Shown: positions 35,889 to 45,172 of the stretch, piece after piece
Layout: each line of letters starts with the position of its first letter
How positions within the stretch are numbered: position 1 is the first letter of the stretch
From: Kiritimatiellia bacterium
GTDB taxonomy: Bacteria; Verrucomicrobiota; Kiritimatiellia; CAIQIC01; Lenti-01
Direction of reading: 5' to 3'
Assembly: GCA_017458625.1 (NCBI GenBank)
Contig: JAFTAH010000073.1
Location: forward strand, 1-49,521
DNA: 49,521 bases
The notes under the pieces: generated by a model
Told to the model about the DNA's origin: nothing
Database searches by the model: none
The model's input: the letters and a program-made list of their open reading frames with translations, nothing else
Position numbers and translations under genes: made by a program

Positions 35889-36359
35889 ATGGGGGCGGAG
35901 GACGGCACCATCACCGTCGAAGAAGCCAAGGGCATCGAGACCACCCTCGACGTCGTCGAAGGCATGCAGTTCGACAAGGGCTACCTCAGCCCCTACTTCG
36001 TGACCTCCCCCGACACCATGGAAGCCGTCCTCGACGACGCCTACATCCTGCTGTTCGAGAAGAAGATCTCCAACCTCCAGGAACTCCTCCCGATCCTCCA
36101 GAACGTCGCCAAGAGCGGCAAGCCCCTGCTCATCATCGCCGAGGACATCGAAGGCGAAGCCCTCGCCACCCTCGTGGTCAACAAGCTGCGCGGCACCCTC
36201 CAGGTCTGCGCCGTCAAGTCCCCGGGCTTCGGCGACCGCCGCAAGGCCATGATGGAAGACATAGCCATCCTCACCGGCGGCAAGTTCATCAGCGACGCCC
36301 TCAGCCTCAAGCTCCAGTCCATCTTTCATTCCCATCCCCTCTCGCCCAACGAAGGTTGA
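35889..36359 (+). pseudogene. groL: Internal fragment of chaperonin GroEL
   Basis: About 140 residues of clear GroEL sequence from the apical-domain region: [20 protein letters not shown], then [76 protein letters not shown] and [18 protein letters not shown]. The equatorial domains on both sides (roughly the first 165 and last 220 residues of about 545) are missing, and the reading ends in an unrelated tail ([13 protein letters not shown]). It has no ATPase part and cannot be a functional chaperonin. Codon use is well conserved and the frame intact, so the fragment is recent. Orientation is opposite to its neighbours. Confidence 0.88.
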
Positions 36360-36479: not shown

Positions 36480-37079
36480 TTATCCAATGGAAAAGCAGGG
36501 GGCCTTCCCGCATACGGGAACCCATTCCAGTGGCTTGAGCAATATGTCATTATAAACTACAGGGATAGACATGGGCTGACATTGTTTCATATACAACACC
36601 CGAGACGCACACGGATCATTCTCGTCGACAAACCGATGGTTGGTGGTATCAAAAAATCGCGGTGCTCCGTTTTGATTGAGGACCAGCAACTCGTGATAAA
36701 TGAAGGTGTCGTCCACAATCCAGTGGGAAAAATCCACGCCTGCCGAAGCCCATTTCTTCTTCCAGAACACTTTTTGGCTTTCATGCGCCAACCCGTATTG
36801 CTGGATGCGAGCGCATTCGATGCCCCGGCGCCGGAGCAAGGTTTCCACCAAATCTGCAAAAACGCCGCAATCCAGCGTGTCCATCCTTCGCAAATCACAC
36901 CAGAAAAATGGATAGAAATGGGGCCCCCAGGCATAGCACTCATACAGCCAAGAAAGACGCATCTGGCTGTTTTCCAGCCGAACATATACGTCATCCATGG
37001 AGAAAAGCCATTCCTGCGCCCCCCGGCAACAAGGGGCGTCATGAAAGGCAATATGTGTTTCGGCTTGCATCATTTCCAT
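36480..37079 (-). CDS. Transglutaminase-like (papain-fold) cysteine enzyme
   Basis: A 199-residue protein that I place in the transglutaminase-like superfamily by its candidate triad: Cys71 in TLDCGVFADLVETLLRRRGI (the helix-start Cys followed by the usual 'llr..G' pattern), His129 in DDTFIYHELLVLNQN, and Asp144 in RFFDTTNHRFVD. Such enzymes hydrolyse or transfer amide/acyl groups. The ATG at 37079 follows GGGAGA at about 7-nt spacing; an upstream TTG at 37178 abuts the fusion gene's stop but has no ribosome-binding site. It is 99 nt behind the ATP-grasp/decarboxylase gene on the same strand. GC content is much lower than in the core genes, suggesting transfer. Confidence 0.68.
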   Translation of the reverse strand: MEMMQAETHIAFHDAPCCRGAQEWLFSMDDVYVRLENSQMRLSWLYECYAWGPHFYPFFWCDLRRMDTLDCGVFADLVETLLRRRGIECARIQQYGLAHESQKVFWKKKWASAGVDFSHWIVDDTFIYHELLVLNQNGAPRFFDTTNHRFVDENDPCASRVLYMKQCQPMSIPVVYNDILLKPLEWVPVCGKAPCFSIG

Positions 37080-37178
37080 GTAAGTGTCTCCCTCTCCTTG
37101 AGGATCATGCTTTCCGGGGTTGGGCTCCCGGCGAACAATGGCATTGCGAGCATTCTCCACAACTGCCGGAAATCGCAA

Positions 37179-39449
37179 TTATTTCTGGCATCCAGAACAA
37201 CACCCCGCGCCAAAGGGGAACGCCATGCTTGCGTCATATGCGCCTACCGATTTGATGGCCATGAAATCCCCCATTTCCATCTGGCGCGGCAATGCGACGT
37301 CGCCACGAAGGATGTCCGATTCCATGCAGATACGCCCCAGAACCCGATCGTCTCCGTCAGCCAAACGCAGCCAACGCCGGGTCTTTCTGTCATGCCAGAG
37401 CATTTCATGCGGGAAGGAACCCGCATCAGGGACTTCGTTGATGGCCGTGTCGAGTATCACATCCCTCTTTTCGCCCCTCTCCCGGAATCCGATGATTTTC
37501 GTCAACAGCAACATCGAATCTTCCACTAAAAGCTTCCCCGGCTCAAAACAGACGCTTCTCAGTGCGGGCAGCCTGCGGCGCACGAGTCCTACGGCTTCCC
37601 CCATGGTTTCGGTATATGCCGCCAGCTCGCGGGTGCGCCACCCCCCCCCGAAATCGAAGTTTTTGAAATCCACGCCGGCGGCACGAGAGATGCGCTGGGC
37701 AAAAATCGCCACCGATTCGATTTCTCGAAGCCAATCCCCCATCCCGATGGTGGATTCTGCAAAATGGAAATGGATGCTCAGCTCGTGTTTCTTTGCGATT
37801 TCCGGCAACGCATCGCATAGGCGGGCGAAAATATCTGGATTGCGGACATCGATGCCGAATCTCGATTCATGGAAAAGAGGGCTGATGCGGATTCCGATTT
37901 GGCAACCCTGCCACCCCCTTTTCCCTGTTTGAGCCATCGTTTCCCTCAAATCGCAGAGGGAATCGCATTGGATCGCCGCCGGCGCGGGGAGCTTGTCTTC
38001 GTTCCTGTTCCCCACCCATTTCCCAGGACCGTTCAGAATGCATTGCTCGCGGGAGAAGCCAGACCGCAACGCATACAGATATTCGTCAAGGGAGATGGTT
38101 TCCATGCCCCATTCCAGGCGAAGCAGTGCTTTCAGCACCGCTGGTGCGGGATTTGTTTTTAGTGAATAGGTCAGCTTCACAACAAGACCAGATTCCCTTT
38201 TCAGCGTCTCGCACATCGCCTTCAGGGACGTTGCCCGTTCCTCGAATTTGGCGGAGACAAACAACCTTCTGGACGGAATAGGCGAATACTCCTCCTTCAT
38301 CGCCTTATTGAGTACCGCCAAGCACATTTCATCGGATTCCACCTCTGCTTCCCGGAGCTTTGGCAGAGCCAGTCTGCTCTTTTTGGAAAGCGCCGGAGAG
38401 CCGGAGGGATGCCCTTTCAACGCAATTTGGGGATGAACCCTGGCGCGAACGAACACATTCCGTTCCACCCTGTCGGAGGGCAACTCCTTTACGATTCGCA
38501 CAAATCCAGCTCTTGGAGGCCTTTCCCTGAGTGGTTCCGCCGAAAGCGCTGCGGCCACCAGACGCCCCGGCAAGTTGGAGCCGCACACCGTTGCCCCGTA
38601 AATCCACGCGGGGAAGCGGGGATTGAAATCAATGAGAACTCGCTTCTTCTCGATGTCGTCCCAAATGGTCTCGATCTCCCCGCCGCCCGTCCAATGCAGA
38701 CCTTGAAGGACCGAGGAAAGTCTGGAAAGAAATTCCGGATTCACCTGGTCCATTTGCGCGCACCACGTTTTCCCCTGGGAAGTCACCTCCGTTTTTCGCA
38801 TGGCTACCGCTCCAAGCAGTTTTCCCTGATAGGCGGCAAAGGAAATGCATTCCTCCCGCCCATAACAAAATTGCTGGAGAATGGGCGTATCCCCCCAAGT
38901 GTCCTCGATGCAACGAAGACGGGAAACCAACTCCCGATAATTGCTCGCGACCCTAGCCTCATGGTGGCGGCCTTTCACGAGCACTGGCCAGCCCATGGCC
39001 TCGCTTTTTTGCACCGAGGCCACGATGTCGTGATGCACGACCGTTTCGGGAATGCTCAATCCCAAGCGAGCCGCCAGCGTTTCGGCCGGCTTTGTTGTCA
39101 GTTGGAGGGCCTCCTCGTCGGGTAGCAGAAAGGATGTGCGGTCCAAAGCGCGAAGTTCCCTGGCAATGGCGAAAATCTCCATGTCCAGCCCTGAAACATA
39201 AAGCGCGTTATGGGCATGCACTGCGTCGGCGATTCCCGCCATGGAGGTCCGAACGTCGACCTCTTCCCATCTGGGCAGGAGAATCCTCTCGTCGACAATG
39301 GGATCGTAGAGTCCCGTGCAACGGGAAGAGTAATCCAAGGCAATGATCTTCAGTTGTGGGAAGGCCTCTTTAACGGAGTAGGCGATGCCCAGTCCAGACG
39401 ATGGATTCGAATCGCTGTGCCAACCGGAAATAAGAATTGCGTCCTTCAT
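37179..39449 (-). CDS. ATP-grasp ligase fused to a PLP-dependent (fold III) decarboxylase
   Basis: A 756-residue two-domain enzyme. Residues 1 to about 325 form an ATP-grasp ligase: pre-ATP-grasp domain, GWPVLVKGRHHEA (Lys159), LQQFCYGREECISF, and metal-binding VLIDFNPRFPA. Residues about 390-756 form a fold-type III decarboxylase like diaminopimelate/ornithine decarboxylases. PLP Lys431 is in TYSLKTNPAP, His560/562 in SIHFHFAES, the phosphate loop is FDFGGGW (about 599), and FEPGKL is the EPGR-type motif. Catalytic Cys708 with Asp712 is in CMESD, and VGAYDASM contains the late Tyr. All key residues are present. The ligase could join an amino acid to a carrier, peptide or amine that the other half decarboxylates, as the separate butirosin enzymes BtrJ and BtrK do; this is analogy only. 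Base composition is AT-richer than the core. Confidence 0.87.
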   Translation of the reverse strand: MKDAILISGWHSDSNPSSGLGIAYSVKEAFPQLKIIALDYSSRCTGLYDPIVDERILLPRWEEVDVRTSMAGIADAVHAHNALYVSGLDMEIFAIARELRALDRTSFLLPDEEALQLTTKPAETLAARLGLSIPETVVHHDIVASVQKSEAMGWPVLVKGRHHEARVASNYRELVSRLRCIEDTWGDTPILQQFCYGREECISFAAYQGKLLGAVAMRKTEVTSQGKTWCAQMDQVNPEFLSRLSSVLQGLHWTGGGEIETIWDDIEKKRVLIDFNPRFPAWIYGATVCGSNLPGRLVAAALSAEPLRERPPRAGFVRIVKELPSDRVERNVFVRARVHPQIALKGHPSGSPALSKKSRLALPKLREAEVESDEMCLAVLNKAMKEEYSPIPSRRLFVSAKFEERATSLKAMCETLKRESGLVVKLTYSLKTNPAPAVLKALLRLEWGMETISLDEYLYALRSGFSREQCILNGPGKWVGNRNEDKLPAPAAIQCDSLCDLRETMAQTGKRGWQGCQIGIRISPLFHESRFGIDVRNPDIFARLCDALPEIAKKHELSIHFHFAESTIGMGDWLREIESVAIFAQRISRAAGVDFKNFDFGGGWRTRELAAYTETMGEAVGLVRRRLPALRSVCFEPGKLLVEDSMLLLTKIIGFRERGEKRDVILDTAINEVPDAGSFPHEMLWHDRKTRRWLRLADGDDRVLGRICMESDILRGDVALPRQMEMGDFMAIKSVGAYDASMAFPFGAGCCSGCQK

Positions 39450-39504
39450 GGGGATACCCCTCGCATGATTCGTCAGATGGGTCTCAATTCGTTTTAAGGC
39501 TACA

Positions 39505-39819
39505 TCATCCGGTTGCTCGTGTCAAAAAATATACCAGATCCGTCATTTTATTGCCGTGACCGTGACGCGCCCCGGGAAATAGCGGCTGATGTGGGATATT
39601 TTCCGGTGGCTTGCTTCCAAAGCACACTCCGTGATCCCCGGCAAGAAGCCCGAAAACAAGACCCGTAGAAAACGCAAGCCAGCGAATCAAGAACATGGTC
39701 GCTTTGCATCCTCCTGACACGAGGACATTGAAAGCCTGGGACACAGCCATCGCCCTTGCCCCGAAGAGCGTCACATCCCGCGCCGCCCGGAGATGACTAG
39801 TCTTGTGCGCCCATGCCAT
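39505..39819 (-). CDS. Small putative membrane protein upstream of the ATP-grasp/decarboxylase gene
   Basis: A 104-codon frame with a purine-rich site (GGAGG) 4 nt before the ATG. One hydrophobic segment (MFLIRWLAFSTGLVFGLLAG) is followed by a hydrophilic Pro/His/Gly-rich tail. No family is recognised. It lies 55 nt upstream of the fusion gene on the same strand, so it could be part of the same unit, even a substrate or partner. It may equally be a chance frame. Internal ATGs (for example at MAVSQAF) give shorter options. Confidence 0.4.
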   Translation of the reverse strand: MAWAHKTSHLRAARDVTLFGARAMAVSQAFNVLVSGGCKATMFLIRWLAFSTGLVFGLLAGDHGVCFGSKPPENIPHQPLFPGARHGHGNKMTDLVYFLTRATG

Positions 39820-39884: not shown

Positions 39885-40448
39885 TTAAACAGGGGCCGGT
39901 GGTGGGAACGATCTGCTTGTCGAGGTCGCCCCATAGCCGGTGAAATCGGAGGCGAAGGTGTTGGTGCCGAGGGCGACGGTGGTAGTGTCGGTGGCGGTCA
40001 TGGGGACGTTGGTGAAGGCGGGACCGACATAGGTGGCGACGAGGGTATTGATGCCGGGGGCACCGGGCACAGCGGCAACGTCGAAGGAGGAGTCAGGATA
40101 GACAGTGCCATGGGTGTTGTTGACGGAGATTGAGCCAGCGGGGTAGTTGACGGAGCCGGCGACGGTGAGGGTGGCGCCGGTCCAGGAGCCGGTGACGATT
40201 TGGTTGAGGTTGTTGAAGGAATTGGTGACATCGAGGCCGAGTTCGGCGCGGTCGACGGGATTTTCCGCGGCGGCGTAGCGGTATCGGGCGGCGTCGGAGG
40301 GGTGGCGCTCTTCGAGGAGGTTCAGGGCGTCGTAGACGTTGGTGCGGGTGCCGAGGACGTCGGTGATGGTGAGCTGACGTCCGAGGCGGTCGTAGGTGCG
40401 CGGGAACACGCCAGTAGGTAAATAAGGGTCACGCCAAAAGCGCCTCAT
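39885..40448 (-). pseudogene. RHS-repeat fragment (displaced cassette 4)
   Basis: A 187-codon frame. After 16 unrelated residues it joins RHS sequence identical in style to the main gene (TYDRLGRQLTITDVLGTRTN, VYDALNLLEERHPSD). It then jumps, still in frame, to a different part of an RHS/YD protein (NSFNNLNQIVTGSWTGATLT and a beta-rich VTxT/S region). It lacks the conserved RHS core end and any toxin tip, so it is a recombination remnant. Its ATG lies 9 nt after the stop of the upstream lipoprotein gene. Confidence 0.72.
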
Positions 40449-40457
40449 GAAAACCTT

Positions 40458-40892
40458 TCAACTTTCAACTCCACATCTCATTGGATCAACATTATAAATC
40501 ATGAGCGCCACGATTTCTCCACTTGAAGACAATCTCACTTCATAAAGGAGTCCATACGTTGCTGCAAGTTCAAGCAGAATGCTTCTGAGACTTCTCTCTG
40601 AGAAGGCTACAGTAATTGTCTTGTCTCCTGCGTGATCAATTGCATGAATCGATATGCCTGTCTGTTCGGTAACAATCCAAGTCAAATCGGACAACGGCGT
40701 GTCCACCAGTGAGATTGACATCAAGCAATCGAAAAACGGATGTTCCAAGGCCAATCGGTTGAAATAATTTACCGAATACATGGAAAGTGACACATTGAGA
40801 GGCATCCGTCCCTGACTGACTGGTTGGGTGGAACATCCAGCAAGGAGCCCCATGACAATCATGGCTCTGAAAACACTCATTGTGCATTTCAT
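40458..40892 (-). CDS. Lipoprotein with an STN-like (secretin/TonB short N-terminal) domain
   Basis: A 144-residue lipoprotein: MKCTMSVFRAMIVMGLLAGC with lipobox LAGC. The mature region includes TPLSDLTWIVTEQTGISIHA and RSLRSILLELAATYGLLYEV, the two halves of an STN-type fold found in secretins and TonB receptors. The start was chosen at 40892, which has GGAG about 9 nt upstream; an ATG at 40937 overlaps the RHS gene end. It follows the toxin-tip end of displaced RHS cassette 3, the position of an immunity gene, and a periplasmic lipoprotein could neutralise an envelope-acting toxin. That function is only inferred from position. Confidence 0.68.
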   Translation of the reverse strand: MKCTMSVFRAMIVMGLLAGCSTQPVSQGRMPLNVSLSMYSVNYFNRLALEHPFFDCLMSISLVDTPLSDLTWIVTEQTGISIHAIDHAGDKTITVAFSERSLRSILLELAATYGLLYEVRLSSSGEIVALMIYNVDPMRCGVES

Positions 40893-40920
40893 GTCAGACA
40901 TCTCCGAAATCATCCTCATT

Positions 40921-42951
40921 CTATTCCTCCATTTCAATGAAGCTACCGGTTTTGCTTTGCATGAACTGCTTGCATCGGTATATAGAGGGATCCTGTGTTA
41001 CATCTTCTAATTGGTCAGGCATTTCATTGTTTCCTCCACACCTTCCACAATGACATTTATTTAGTTTTACCACCCTGCTACATACTTTCCATATCCAGAA
41101 GCTTTCCGTTTTGTGCCTGATAGAAACACGTTGATCGACCTTCCCTCCATAGCAGGCATCATCTGTAACACCATGTTCTCTCATTAGCTCTCCAAGAATT
41201 GTTGCTATCTTTTCGGCTGCGCCCCGATGCGGTAAGTCTCTGACCAATACGTCTCTGTATTGCTTTGTCCATCCCTGTGTATTTCCTGTCCCGCCAAAAC
41301 CGTGACAATGTGGCACATGACTTCCCGTGTCCGAGAAAACATCAACAAATGGACCGCCGACTTCATTATTGTATGGTCGTTGATTATACCATTCTCCCCC
41401 CGATGGTGAAGCACCTAGCGAATCGAACCACGACAGGGGACTATTGTAGACGAATTGGTACAGATTAACACCGCCCAGTTCCGAGATGATATCGCGACTG
41501 AGCCACCTTCCCCACATTTGGGAATAGAATCTGTAGCCATAGTAATAGAATCCGATTGACCAATCCAAGTACTTGGAGCTGAATCGAAATGGAGTATTGC
41601 CAACTTGGGCGCAGGTCTGAACACTAGTACCACCAAAAGCATCATACATATAGTGAGCAATACTGGTGGCCTCTTCATCTGTCAGCTCTGTGACATTGCC
41701 ATGGATGTCGTGGAAACAGAAGGCGTTCGTGCTACCATGGCGTTGCATAATGAGACCGCCGATGCCGCCGACGCCGTGGAGGGTGACGGAAAGGTCAAGG
41801 CCCCAGACGTATTCGGCGGCGACGGGGCCGTCAATGCCGGTCAAGGCGAGGTCGGTATGGGAAATGTAGGGATGCGGGGTGCGAGGGAGAATGGCGGGCT
41901 TTTGTTCCTGGAGGAGGTTCCAGTCATCGTAGCGGAAAGCGCGGCCTTGGACATAATACCAAGTCGTTTCGCCGAGATAGTCGTTCCATGCAAACTCGCG
42001 GCGGGCGATGCGTCGGCTTTGGGCGTCGTACATGTATTGGATAAGGGTAGAGTCGAAATTGGTGACGAGGGGCAGGACTTCGATGAGGCGGTTCTCGGCG
42101 TCCCATGTGTAGCTCCATGTGCCGTCGGAAGTCATATTGCCGTCGGGGTCGTAGGTGAAGGGGGTGGGGTTGCTGGAGGCGGGGTTGAGGGCGGTGTACT
42201 GGTTGAGTTCGTTGGCTGCGTAGAGATTGGTGACGCCGTTTTCGGAGGAGGAGGTGCGGTTGCCGATGGGGTCGTAGGCGTAGGAATAGGTGTTGGTGCC
42301 CATTTCGGCGGAAACGAGTTCGGAGCGGACATTATATCCGAAGAGGTTGGTAACAGTGCCGTCGTCGATGCGTTGGGTGCGGCGGCCGAGGGCGTCGTAG
42401 GTGTAGGCGAAGGTGGAGATGACGTTGGTGAACCAGGCGTTGGAGACGAGGGTCTTGACGTCGCGGAGGGGTTCGTATTCGTAGGCGACGGCGAGGCCGA
42501 GGTCGTTGGTGTAGCCGGAGAGGAGGGAGGAGTTGGACAAGTAGGAATAGGTGAATGTGGCACCGTTGGTGACGGCGACGATGGAGAAGCGGCCATATTC
42601 GTCGTAGCCGTAGCCGACGGCGTAGTCGGGGCCGAGGGCGATGCCGGAGGCGCGACCGTAGGCGTCGTAGGAGCGGACGAGGGCGGTGCCGTCGGGGTGG
42701 CGTTCTTCGAGGAGGTCGGTGGGGGAATAGACGTTGGTGCGAGTGCCGAGGACGTCGGTGACGGTGAGCTGGCGGCCGAGGCGGTCGTAGGTGAAGGCAA
42801 CGTCGGGGGTGGAGTCGGAGTAGTCGATGGCCACGAGCTGGCCGAGGGCGTGGGCTGAGTCTGCGGCATACCATAAGAGCCAGACGACACCGGTATGCGA
42901 AGAGCCTTCGTTGGAATTATAGGCTATCATCTTTTTCCGTTTTGTCATCAT
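40921..42951 (-). CDS. Displaced RHS C-terminal cassette 3 with Cys/His-rich tip
   Basis: A 676-residue frame. About 35 residues unlike RHS (MMTKRKKMIAYNSN...) join the RHS repeats exactly at ALGQLVAIDYSDSTPDV, and then follow the main gene for about 470 residues with YD repeats (YDRLGRQ, YDAYGRA, YDPDGNM). The RHS core ends with RDIISELGGVNLYQFVYNSP and WFDSLG. The last 165 residues are an unrelated AT-richer tip with HVPHCHGFGGTG and a KCHCGRCGG knuckle; its activity is unknown. The ATG overlaps the stop of the WG-repeat gene by ATGA (42948-42951), so it can be translated although it lacks the RHS N-terminus. Without the N-terminal delivery domain it would be an orphan toxin reservoir. Confidence 0.82.
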   Translation of the reverse strand: MMTKRKKMIAYNSNEGSSHTGVVWLLWYAADSAHALGQLVAIDYSDSTPDVAFTYDRLGRQLTVTDVLGTRTNVYSPTDLLEERHPDGTALVRSYDAYGRASGIALGPDYAVGYGYDEYGRFSIVAVTNGATFTYSYLSNSSLLSGYTNDLGLAVAYEYEPLRDVKTLVSNAWFTNVISTFAYTYDALGRRTQRIDDGTVTNLFGYNVRSELVSAEMGTNTYSYAYDPIGNRTSSSENGVTNLYAANELNQYTALNPASSNPTPFTYDPDGNMTSDGTWSYTWDAENRLIEVLPLVTNFDSTLIQYMYDAQSRRIARREFAWNDYLGETTWYYVQGRAFRYDDWNLLQEQKPAILPRTPHPYISHTDLALTGIDGPVAAEYVWGLDLSVTLHGVGGIGGLIMQRHGSTNAFCFHDIHGNVTELTDEEATSIAHYMYDAFGGTSVQTCAQVGNTPFRFSSKYLDWSIGFYYYGYRFYSQMWGRWLSRDIISELGGVNLYQFVYNSPLSWFDSLGASPSGGEWYNQRPYNNEVGGPFVDVFSDTGSHVPHCHGFGGTGNTQGWTKQYRDVLVRDLPHRGAAEKIATILGELMREHGVTDDACYGGKVDQRVSIRHKTESFWIWKVCSRVVKLNKCHCGRCGGNNEMPDQLEDVTQDPSIYRCKQFMQSKTGSFIEMEE
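41745..42850 (-). repeat. Direct repeats of RHS-core DNA shared by three cassettes
   Basis: RHS coding DNA is repeated with near-identity at about 46800-47900 (main gene), 44690-45465 (cassette 2) and here (cassette 3), with a shorter copy near 40300-40396 (cassette 4). For example, the stretch GCGAGGCCGAGGTCGTTGGT occurs in all three long copies (near 42490, 45360 and 47540). Such kilobase repeats would favour recombination that swaps tips. Each copy starts at a different point in the RHS frame. Confidence 0.75.
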
Positions 42952-43880
42952 CTAATGGTCTGTCCCCTGGCATTCCTCGGTCTTATGACCTCGCCAGTCG
43001 GTCGGATGTAACATCCTCCTGCATCAGCCAAAAAGATCCACAACATCGTCGTAGAATATATACGTACAGCCTCATAACGACAGGGTAAAATTTCTTTTCC
43101 CAATGAATCTATAACCCCCCATTTTTTCAATATGCAAACTGCTGCCATTCCATGGTGAAAAGGGCTGATTTCATCATATTTCATGTCGCTTACCAGATCC
43201 CCGCCAAGGTTGACGAATCCCCATTTCCCGTGTTTCTTAACACCAAGAAAACCTTCTGAAGAGCCAATCGCATCATCATAGGCTGTGTTCAGCAAAGGGT
43301 TCCCGTTTCGGTCAACATACATATATTGGGCACCTCGACGAACAATCGCCAGGTTTTCATGAAATGGATTTGCCTCGTCGAAATCATTCATTTCCAAAAC
43401 TGTCTCACCGGATCGGTTGATATATCGATAGGCTCCACGAAGAGCTACGCAGGCCCAACCTGCGGAATCAAATCCAGATGCATCCTCGTAAATGGGCGGA
43501 ATAACAAATCTGTTTTGTTCGTTAACAAACCCAAATTTGCCCCTCAGGGAGACAAGTGAAATACCCTCGTGAAAACTTGATGCAGACTCGTACATGGGAG
43601 GAATCATGAAGCGCCCGCTTCGATCAATGACGCCGTATCCGGTTGGCACAAAAACGCACGCGGTGCCCTTGTAAAACATTCCGACCTCGTCATAGATACA
43701 TGGAATAAATATGTTTCCTTTTCCATCAATATATCCATATGTCCCGGATAATCCGACGCCAGCTAGATTGTCTGAAAAATCATAGGCATAATCATATTGT
43801 GGCGATATAACCACATGTCCATCTTCGTCATGGTAACCATATCGACCATTGAGTTCAAAAGGATAGAGTCTTTTATTCAT
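42948..43880 (-). CDS. WG-repeat protein, candidate immunity protein
   Basis: A 310-residue protein made of WG-type beta repeats (about eight): YGYHDEDGHVVISPQYDYAY, YGYIDGKGNIFIPCIYDEV, YGVIDRSGRFMIPPMYESA, FGFVNEQNRFVIPPIYEDA, and WGFVNLGGDLVSDMKYDEI among them. No signal peptide, so it is probably cytosolic. The start at 43880 overlaps the upstream RHS stop by ATGA (43877-43880). Position immediately after an RHS tip is that of an immunity gene, and repeat proteins are common among such partners; binding to the tip is predicted, not shown. Base composition is AT-rich compared with the RHS core. Confidence 0.82.
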   Translation of the reverse strand: MNKRLYPFELNGRYGYHDEDGHVVISPQYDYAYDFSDNLAGVGLSGTYGYIDGKGNIFIPCIYDEVGMFYKGTACVFVPTGYGVIDRSGRFMIPPMYESASSFHEGISLVSLRGKFGFVNEQNRFVIPPIYEDASGFDSAGWACVALRGAYRYINRSGETVLEMNDFDEANPFHENLAIVRRGAQYMYVDRNGNPLLNTAYDDAIGSSEGFLGVKKHGKWGFVNLGGDLVSDMKYDEISPFHHGMAAVCILKKWGVIDSLGKEILPCRYEAVRIYSTTMLWIFLADAGGCYIRPTGEVIRPRNARGQTIR

Positions 43881-45172
43881 GGTGTTGCTAGACAAAACGA
43901 CACACCTCCAACCGCACCAGGAGGTCCTGCAACCAGAAAGCCAACTGCACCGCCTAGGCACGTTTTAAAAACCTTATACACAGCATAGACAACAACACAA
44001 GTTCCTACTGCAGCTCCCACATAAACAGCCTCATCAATCGTTTCGTTCTGACAACAATCTCCTGGTGCTGGCACAGAAACTTCAATGGACTCGAAGCGCC
44101 ATTTCGTATTTTCCAAGCATTTCCGAATATTGTTTGGAACATCTGGGCTGCCTTCTCGCCCTTTACCACTTGGCCAATCTGCCGAATATCTTCCCCGACA
44201 AGAATGTGGGCGCCTATGAGTTCCACAATTCCAATGTATATGGTATGGTGATTGTCCATCACCACTTCGATTTTTATCAACGCAGATTAAACAATTACCA
44301 CATGGAATTTTCTCGCCATCAAGCCCAAGGACATCAAATCCATCTATTGGATTGTCAAATGCAAAGATATACGGGGATATACCGTCATCATTGTAGAAAA
44401 CATTGGATGCTTGGAATGTTTTGCGTGACAACATCTGAAATGACAATTCCAAGAGTGAATCCCTGGAAAGCCACTTTCCAATTTTCGAAGAATAAAACCT
44501 ATATCCATAGTAGTAAAGTCCTGCATCACCATAATCATTATACTTGGAACTGAAGCGAAATGGGTTGGAGACAGATGAGGTGCCGAACTGAACAGCAGTA
44601 TTGCCGTAGGAGTCATATTCATAGTGAGCTGAAAGTGCCCCGTCTTCGTCCAACAGGTCTGAGATGTTGCCGTTGGCGTCGCAGACGGAGAACCAAGGGG
44701 AGTTGGAATCGGAGTGGCGTTGCATGAGGAGGCCGCCGATGCCGCCGGCGTCCTGAAGGGTGCCGGCGAGGTCGAGGCCCCAGACATAATCGTTGGTTGC
44801 GGATGTGGAATTGGAATCAATAGTCTCGCGGATAAGGTTCCATCCGTCGTAAACGAAGGCATTTGTTGCCGTGGAGGTTGCTTTCTCTATGCGGCGGCTC
44901 ATGAAGTCGTAGCGGTTGGTGACGAGGGCGATGCCGTTGGAGGCGACCCCGAGGAGGCGGTTTTCGGCGTCCCAGAAGAAAGCGAGGTCGCCGTATTGGA
45001 TTACGTTGCCGTCGGAATCATACACGAAGGTCGTACTGTTTGTGGTGTCGGGATTCAGGAAGGTATACTGGTTCAGTTCGTTGGAGACATAGACGTTGGT
45101 CGTGCTGTTTTCGGAGGTTTCCGTGCGATTGCCGATGGGGTCATAGGCGTAGGTGTAGGTGTTGGTGCCCAT
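43877..45172 (-). CDS. Displaced RHS C-terminal cassette 2 with Cys-rich, partly hydrophobic tip
   Basis: RHS similarity starts near 45465 (FSISNG then YSYVPNSSLLSGYTNDLG), but the first in-frame start codon is at 45172 (MGTNTYTYAYDPIGNRTETS), giving 431 residues. RHS repeats and core run to NPIDGFDVLGL. The tip (about 145 residues, 43877-44315) has CGNCLICVDKN, SPYHIHWNC and a long hydrophobic end (YVGAAVGTCVVVYAVYKVFK, then AVGFLVAGPPGAVGG) that may insert in membranes. The codon frame at the upstream junction is broken relative to the preceding gene, so expression may be weak. The WG-repeat gene overlaps its stop. Confidence 0.78.
   Translation of the reverse strand: MGTNTYTYAYDPIGNRTETSENSTTNVYVSNELNQYTFLNPDTTNSTTFVYDSDGNVIQYGDLAFFWDAENRLLGVASNGIALVTNRYDFMSRRIEKATSTATNAFVYDGWNLIRETIDSNSTSATNDYVWGLDLAGTLQDAGGIGGLLMQRHSDSNSPWFSVCDANGNISDLLDEDGALSAHYEYDSYGNTAVQFGTSSVSNPFRFSSKYNDYGDAGLYYYGYRFYSSKIGKWLSRDSLLELSFQMLSRKTFQASNVFYNDDGISPYIFAFDNPIDGFDVLGLDGEKIPCGNCLICVDKNRSGDGQSPYHIHWNCGTHRRPHSCRGRYSADWPSGKGREGSPDVPNNIRKCLENTKWRFESIEVSVPAPGDCCQNETIDEAVYVGAAVGTCVVVYAVYKVFKTCLGGAVGFLVAGPPGAVGGVSFCLATP

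Follow-up and report, generated by a model that had tools for sequence, protein, structure and literature searches.

What would a bacterium make with an adenosine triphosphate (ATP)-grasp ligase and a pyridoxal phosphate (PLP) decarboxylase joined in one polypeptide, with a transglutaminase-like (TG) enzyme encoded directly behind them? The question is raised by two minus-strand genes in a 49,521-nucleotide stretch of a Kiritimatiellia bacterium (contig JAFTAH010000073.1; the whole stretch is called the window here), which stand head-to-tail, the fusion gene first and the TG gene second. The fusion gene (37179..39449, minus strand) was delimited from the list of open reading frames (ORFs), the alignment and full-length fused homologues; it begins with ATG and stays open for 756 aa, and the single fused polypeptide of the original prediction, made from the letters alone, was thereby recovered. 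We consider it an even call that the two genes form a horizontally acquired cassette for the biosynthesis of a small, amine-containing molecule, acting through the steps proposed below. The parts of this cassette, their order, their conservation and their apparently intact catalytic residues can be read from the sequences; the reaction steps are what we infer from them.

When searched alone, the N-terminal half of the window protein (residues 1-330, approximately; 38460..39449, minus strand) gave sub-threshold matches to PF15632 (E=0.018) and to a PRK12767-type NCBIfam model (E=4.5e-6). The family profile A1 of this half matched solved ATP-grasp enzymes, namely 2pn1 (E=5e-20) and carbamoyl-phosphate synthase (E=1e-16), and PF15632 was matched by 13 of the 15 fusion homologues. 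The candidate catalytic residues K120, K159, K219, E258, D274, N276 and R278 are among the invariant residues in alignments A1 and A2, and the profile match together with the conserved nucleotide and Mg residues places this half in the ATP-grasp superfamily. It was on this assignment that the original prediction had staked its pathway beforehand, and the family-profile matches to solved structures upheld it. ATP-grasp structures were not among the 50 Foldseek rows shown for the AlphaFold model of the fusion. A linker follows (residues 331-395, approximately; 38265..38459, minus strand), in which alignment A2 revealed a conserved HPSG-like motif; residues 329-346 and 360-372 were modeled with low AlphaFold confidence.

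The C-terminal half (residues 396-756, approximately; 37179..38264, minus strand) matched PF02784 and PF00278, both above cut-off. It carries Lys431 for the PLP Schiff base, H562, GGG601-603, EPGK636-639 and Cys708-Met-Glu-Ser-Asp712, so the intact fold-III decarboxylase that had been predicted from Lys431, the GGG loop, EPGK and CxxxD was confirmed by domain matches and residues alike. The N- and C-terminal Pfam domains, the lysine, the GGG loop and the Cys place it among the fold-type III (alanine-racemase-fold) PLP decarboxylases. In Foldseek, its AlphaFold model retrieved diaminopimelate (DAP) decarboxylase (E 3e-21), N-citrylornithine decarboxylase (1e-19) and BtrK (5.5e-19), and the matches, which ranged from E 3e-21 to about 1e-18, also included ornithine decarboxylases.

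The identity of the substrate was approached through the pocket residues. LysA (TIGR01048) was the best NCBIfam match of the decarboxylase half, although the score of 92 bits lay far below the cut-off of 298, and the FslC model (NF041039) gave 56 bits against a cut-off of 500. A replacement for the native LysA was rejected as an explanation, as the genome has another LysA-like gene. The relatives of this enzyme split into users of free amino acids and users of conjugated amino acids, the latter being FigC, SbnH, AcsE, MccE and BtrK (PMC7857480). Decarboxylases of basic amino acids and of DAP bind the side-chain amine through an acidic residue adjacent to the catalytic Cys; FigC, which acts on N-citrylornithine, has Met355 at this place (PMC7857480). 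The corresponding residue in the window is Met709, Met was found in every cassette member intact at this position, and the DAP-binding RPxLY motif (Arg/Tyr) is absent from the window decarboxylase half.

The TG gene (36480..37082, minus strand; 200 aa) is real and conserved. The most likely start codon is the ATG at 37082, preceded by AAGGAG; the original prediction had placed the start too early, at the TTG at 37178. The candidate catalytic Cys (in DCG), His (in YHE) and Asp of its product are invariant across 12 homologues and occur in transglutaminase-like order. The product had no Pfam or NCBIfam match, and the Transglut_core profile PF01841 was matched by just 1 of the 12 family members (E=0.093). 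When the family was compared by hhalign with 14 Transglut_core sequences of the phylum, only the Cys helix was aligned (probability 4%); Transglut_core genes were also sought in the own genome for comparison and none was found, and a PDB sequence search with the family gave no match. The AlphaFold model (pLDDT 82) retrieved mostly transglutaminases, cysteine proteases and NATs as its best Foldseek rows, pseudomurein endoisopeptidases included, with weak matches (E 0.02-0.7, TM about 0.2-0.4). The label "transglutaminase-like" is owed to the order of these residues and to a weak resemblance in fold, and not to a family match.

The arrangement is conserved well beyond this genome. When 84,980 species genomes were scanned for the ATP-grasp family, the best 80 loci (L028-L107) fell into two groups, and the close one comprised 16 loci among the matches listed (L028-L043; E 4e-72 to 2e-49). 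In every locus of the close group that could be followed, except L035, the ATP-grasp and decarboxylase parts are fused in frame, and the TG gene directly follows the fusion in 14 of 15 testable close relatives, the window counted. The positives are the window, L028-L034, L036 (pieced from two contigs), L037, L038 and L040-L042; L035 is the only exception, while L039 and L043 stop at a contig end. Both genes were found in Nocardioides, two Actinokineospora, Mycobacterium, Acidimicrobiales, a Spirochaetia metagenome-assembled genome, Bdellovibrionales, an alphaproteobacterium, Sphingomonadales and Pyrinomonadaceae, that is, in Actinomycetota, Acidobacteriota, Proteobacteria, Bdellovibrionota and Spirochaetota; a Nitrospirae locus lacks the TG gene and a Chthoniobacterales locus is cut by the contig end. 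On a plasmid of Streptomyces zaomyceticus, the pair overlaps by 4 bp, both genes are annotated "hypothetical protein", and a "fatty acid desaturase" gene comes next. Full-length fused homologues include those of Nocardioides, Actinokineospora, Mycobacterium, the Streptomyces plasmid and Pyrinomonadaceae. Conservation of the two genes together in other genomes, on which the original prediction had also made its pathway depend, was borne out by these relatives and the plasmid.

The same association was obtained from the other side. Across the roughly 1,120 genomes in which its matches were counted, the TG family was present in 16 of 119 from the acidobacterial order, in 3 of 349 of the Actinokineospora order, in 3 of 351 of the order of the Sphingomonadales member, and in none of the other 287 sampled genomes of the window's class. 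All 17 further loci fetched via TG alone have a decarboxylase directly upstream, some of them truncated by contig ends, and no orphan TG gene was seen among the neighborhoods read. Viral contigs (one scan) and phage records (tblastn) contained no relative. We conclude that the cassette is real, conserved and functionally coherent.

The second group of the scan revealed a cousin operon. Within the window's phylum, a homologous ATP-grasp gene was found in seven other genomes of the sample, in each case beside a separate decarboxylase gene. In L044-L107 (64 of the best 80 loci), the ATP-grasp gene is likewise separate, and a decarboxylase gene nearly always stands behind it. Among the matches listed, 52 of these 64 loci contain a urea-transporter/M23-peptidase (UT-M23) fusion gene, usually directly downstream, and none contains a TG-like gene. 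Conversely, no cassette locus has a UT-M23 gene, and the window ORFs beside the cassette are likewise not UT-M23. The window locus is therefore not a member of the ATP-grasp/decarboxylase/UT-M23 operon, for its enzymes are fused and a TG-like gene stands in the place of UT-M23. In two quick trees with some long branches, the window's among them, the cassette ATP-grasp halves, L035 included, formed one clade apart from the two-gene type (SH-aLRT 99), and the cassette decarboxylases formed one clade apart from LysA and the two-gene type (SH-aLRT 100).

The two-gene version is much commoner than the cassette, and we found no description of it in the open-access literature searched. It was observed at L021-L027 and L044-L107 (for example L022:9626-14087), with an FslC/LysA-like decarboxylase, and its hosts include Aquificota, Thermotogota, Cyanobacteria, Bacteroidota, Leptospiraceae, Myxococcota, Verrucomicrobiota and more. 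One cousin locus (L026:10456-15268) has two ATP-grasp genes, one decarboxylase gene and a radical SAM protein, which resembles the archaeosine enzyme RaSEA (TIGR01210, 197 bits, just below cut-off).

The neighborhoods of the cassette vary with the host lineage. B12-radical SAM genes adjoin five Actinomycete and Spirochaete cassettes (L028-L032), and putative HxD...H oxygenases, tandem or single, stand beside the Acidobacteriota and Sphingomonadales cassettes. The latter proteins, of about 220-270 aa and often in tandem (L037:9061-9867, L038:1408-2876, L040:9061-9723, L042:9027-9686), share invariant HxDH...H...R residues, by which the family looks like an Fe(II) oxygenase; it matched no Pfam family above cut-off and gave no match in a PDB sequence search. 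Such lineage-varying third genes are a secondary-metabolite pattern.

Loading of an amino acid on a carrier protein, which had also been suggested, was not supported: a motif scan, which may miss divergent carriers, reached 6 kb from the cassette at 14 loci and covered window 33-43 kb, and it found no ORF of 60-140 aa with a carrier motif. No conserved small acceptor protein was found beside the cassette either. The 104-aa ORF at 39505-39819, which had been proposed as a membrane protein of the system and as a possible acceptor, was ruled out as a cassette part. It has no convincing homologue in loci L021-L107, and its codon-position GC (0.60/0.51/0.56, against 0.60/0.45/0.65 for the fusion gene) lacks the low-second, high-third pattern, so that this ORF looks non-coding.

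The cassette was probably acquired horizontally in this genome, judging from its sparse distribution, its absence from 287 further sampled genomes of the class and its low GC. As predicted, it is AT-richer than its surroundings (54.8% GC, against 66.7% for window 1-35700) and is flanked by a gene fragment. This fragment, of groEL (Cpn60), lies at window 35889-36359 (plus strand) and is a pseudogene fragment at the island edge; its DNA is 89% identical to a copy that this genome carries on another contig, C78. That the contig of the window might be foreign to the bin, as first supposed, is made less likely by this match and by the GC of 66.7% in window 1-35700, since the other contigs have 63-71%. 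On the other side, an AT-rich stretch with a YD-repeat (Rhs-like) gene and a disrupted piece that has repeats in common with it lies beside the cassette (window 39885-42951, minus strand). It is followed by a protein built of repeated YGY.D..G..V..P.YD units, which on inspection look WG-repeat-like (window 42948-43961, minus strand), and the GC goes down to 44.5% at window 43001-44000.

From these parts, the following route is proposed. The ATP-grasp half would activate a carboxylate as an acyl-phosphate and join it to the amine of an amino acid. The conjugate, which would keep a free alpha-amino acid group, could then pass to the PLP decarboxylase, where CO2 would be lost and an acylated di- or polyamine-like amine left; the single chain may serve to keep the conjugate close to the decarboxylase. 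The TG-like enzyme might next take up the acyl group as a thioester on its Cys and transfer it to another amine, or release it, and in other hosts, tailoring by the B12-radical SAM enzyme, the putative oxygenase or the desaturase-like protein would follow. Ligation and decarboxylation had been predicted to occur in one step; they do reside on one chain, but in two active sites that would act in sequence. Conjugation first and decarboxylation second is the order favored by the residues, because of Met709, the missing DAP-binding Arg/Tyr motif and the fused ligase. A more specific version, in which a new class of carrier-free cassette, spread across phyla by horizontal transfer, yields an acylated amine from an amino acid through its one-chain ligase-decarboxylase and the TG-like family, which has no Pfam or NCBIfam entry, joins these amines into a bioactive compound, is put forward tentatively, at somewhat under an even chance.

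Several observations weigh against this route. The position of the second FigC determinant, H357, is taken by Ser711 in the window, by Asp in L034 and by Asn in L031, with His kept in the remaining intact rows; the pTM of the AlphaFold fusion model is low, 0.54; and the window has no B12-radical SAM, oxygenase or desaturase-like gene near the cassette. In addition, an Asp (D675 in the window) stands behind the LP of the specificity-helix region in this protein and in most of the actinobacterial members, and it might accommodate a free basic amino acid. The same residue, by holding a basic side chain, could serve the reverse order, in which the PLP half makes a (di)amine from a free amino acid, the ATP-grasp half acylates it and the TG-like enzyme finishes the product. 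There is precedent for such an order in the tyramine-glutamate ligase MfnD, which joins a decarboxylated amine to an amino acid and is a weak NCBIfam match of a related ATP-grasp protein, and in the closthioamide pathway, where CtaF is proposed to make beta-alanine that is then loaded by the ATP-grasp enzyme (PMC6772006). However, Met instead of an acidic residue adjoins the catalytic Cys in all intact cassette members, and position 675 is Met or Leu in the acidobacterial, sphingomonad and bdellovibrio ones, so we regard decarboxylation first as unlikely. A deprotecting role of the TG-like enzyme, as an amidase or peptidase like BtrG of butirosin synthesis that removes an acyl group added by the ligase once the decarboxylase has acted on the protected amino acid, is rather improbable as well. 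Cys-His-Asp enzymes of the transglutaminase-like superfamily hydrolyse as well as transfer, and putative cysteine proteases and pseudomurein endoisopeptidases are among the closest fold matches; BtrG, however, belongs to a different family.

The target might also be a protein, a peptide or a cell-wall component instead of a free small molecule, in line with the linkage of the cousin operon to UT-M23, which points that operon to the cell envelope. Yet the cassette loci have neither UT-M23 nor an adjacent acceptor or carrier motif, and their neighboring tailoring enzymes are of secondary-metabolism type, which makes an envelope or protein target quite doubtful. A decaying, non-functional acquisition would fit the AT-rich island with the groEL fragment and YD-repeat pieces around, and the lack of a copy in the class sample; we consider decay very unlikely, given two uninterrupted frames with their catalytic residues intact, a codon-position GC like that of coding sequence and a ribosome-binding site in front of the TG gene. 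Conjugation followed by decarboxylation thus remains the route that we prefer for the cassette.

We found no description of this gene combination in the open-access literature searched. The enzyme pair is small, widely scattered and easily tested, and its members are at present annotated as hypothetical or as decarboxylase-like; it provides a starting point for mining genomes for a compound class, a one-chain conjugate-then-decarboxylate logic and a TG-like family without a profile, and its study also exposed the far commoner, undescribed-looking cousin operon. That operon has homologous ATP-grasp and decarboxylase genes in the same order, but the genes are separate, belong to separate clades and have UT-M23 in place of the TG-like gene. 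LysA shares the fold and PLP motifs of the decarboxylase half, which differs in its sub-cut-off score and missing DAP-binding residues. FslC/FigC, which act with the NIS synthetase FslA/FigA, share the Met beside the catalytic Cys, a changed specificity helix and a Foldseek match at E 1e-19; the cassette decarboxylase nevertheless scores far below the FslC cut-off and is partnered with ATP-grasp. In the closthioamide cluster, the ATP-grasp enzyme CtaD, the decarboxylase CtaF and the transglutaminase CtaJ build an amide-linked diamine product (PMC6772006). What the cassette has in common with this cluster is the three enzyme classes, and closthioamide formation differs in being thiotemplated, with the carrier proteins CtaE/CtaH and thioamide formation. 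The parallel originally drawn with BtrJ/BtrK of butirosin synthesis is reasonable as logic, with Met709 as in FigC/FslC, and is not supported for the loading on a carrier. Both systems combine an ATP-grasp enzyme with an alanine-racemase-fold decarboxylase of the BtrK fold, and the order of conjugation before decarboxylation in butirosin synthesis is the one proposed for the cassette. The two butirosin enzymes, however, are separate proteins that work with a carrier, whereas the cassette has a single chain, a TG-like partner and no carrier motif in the ranges scanned. The cassette is thus a variation on the known conjugate-then-decarboxylate theme, to which it adds a TG-like partner enzyme.

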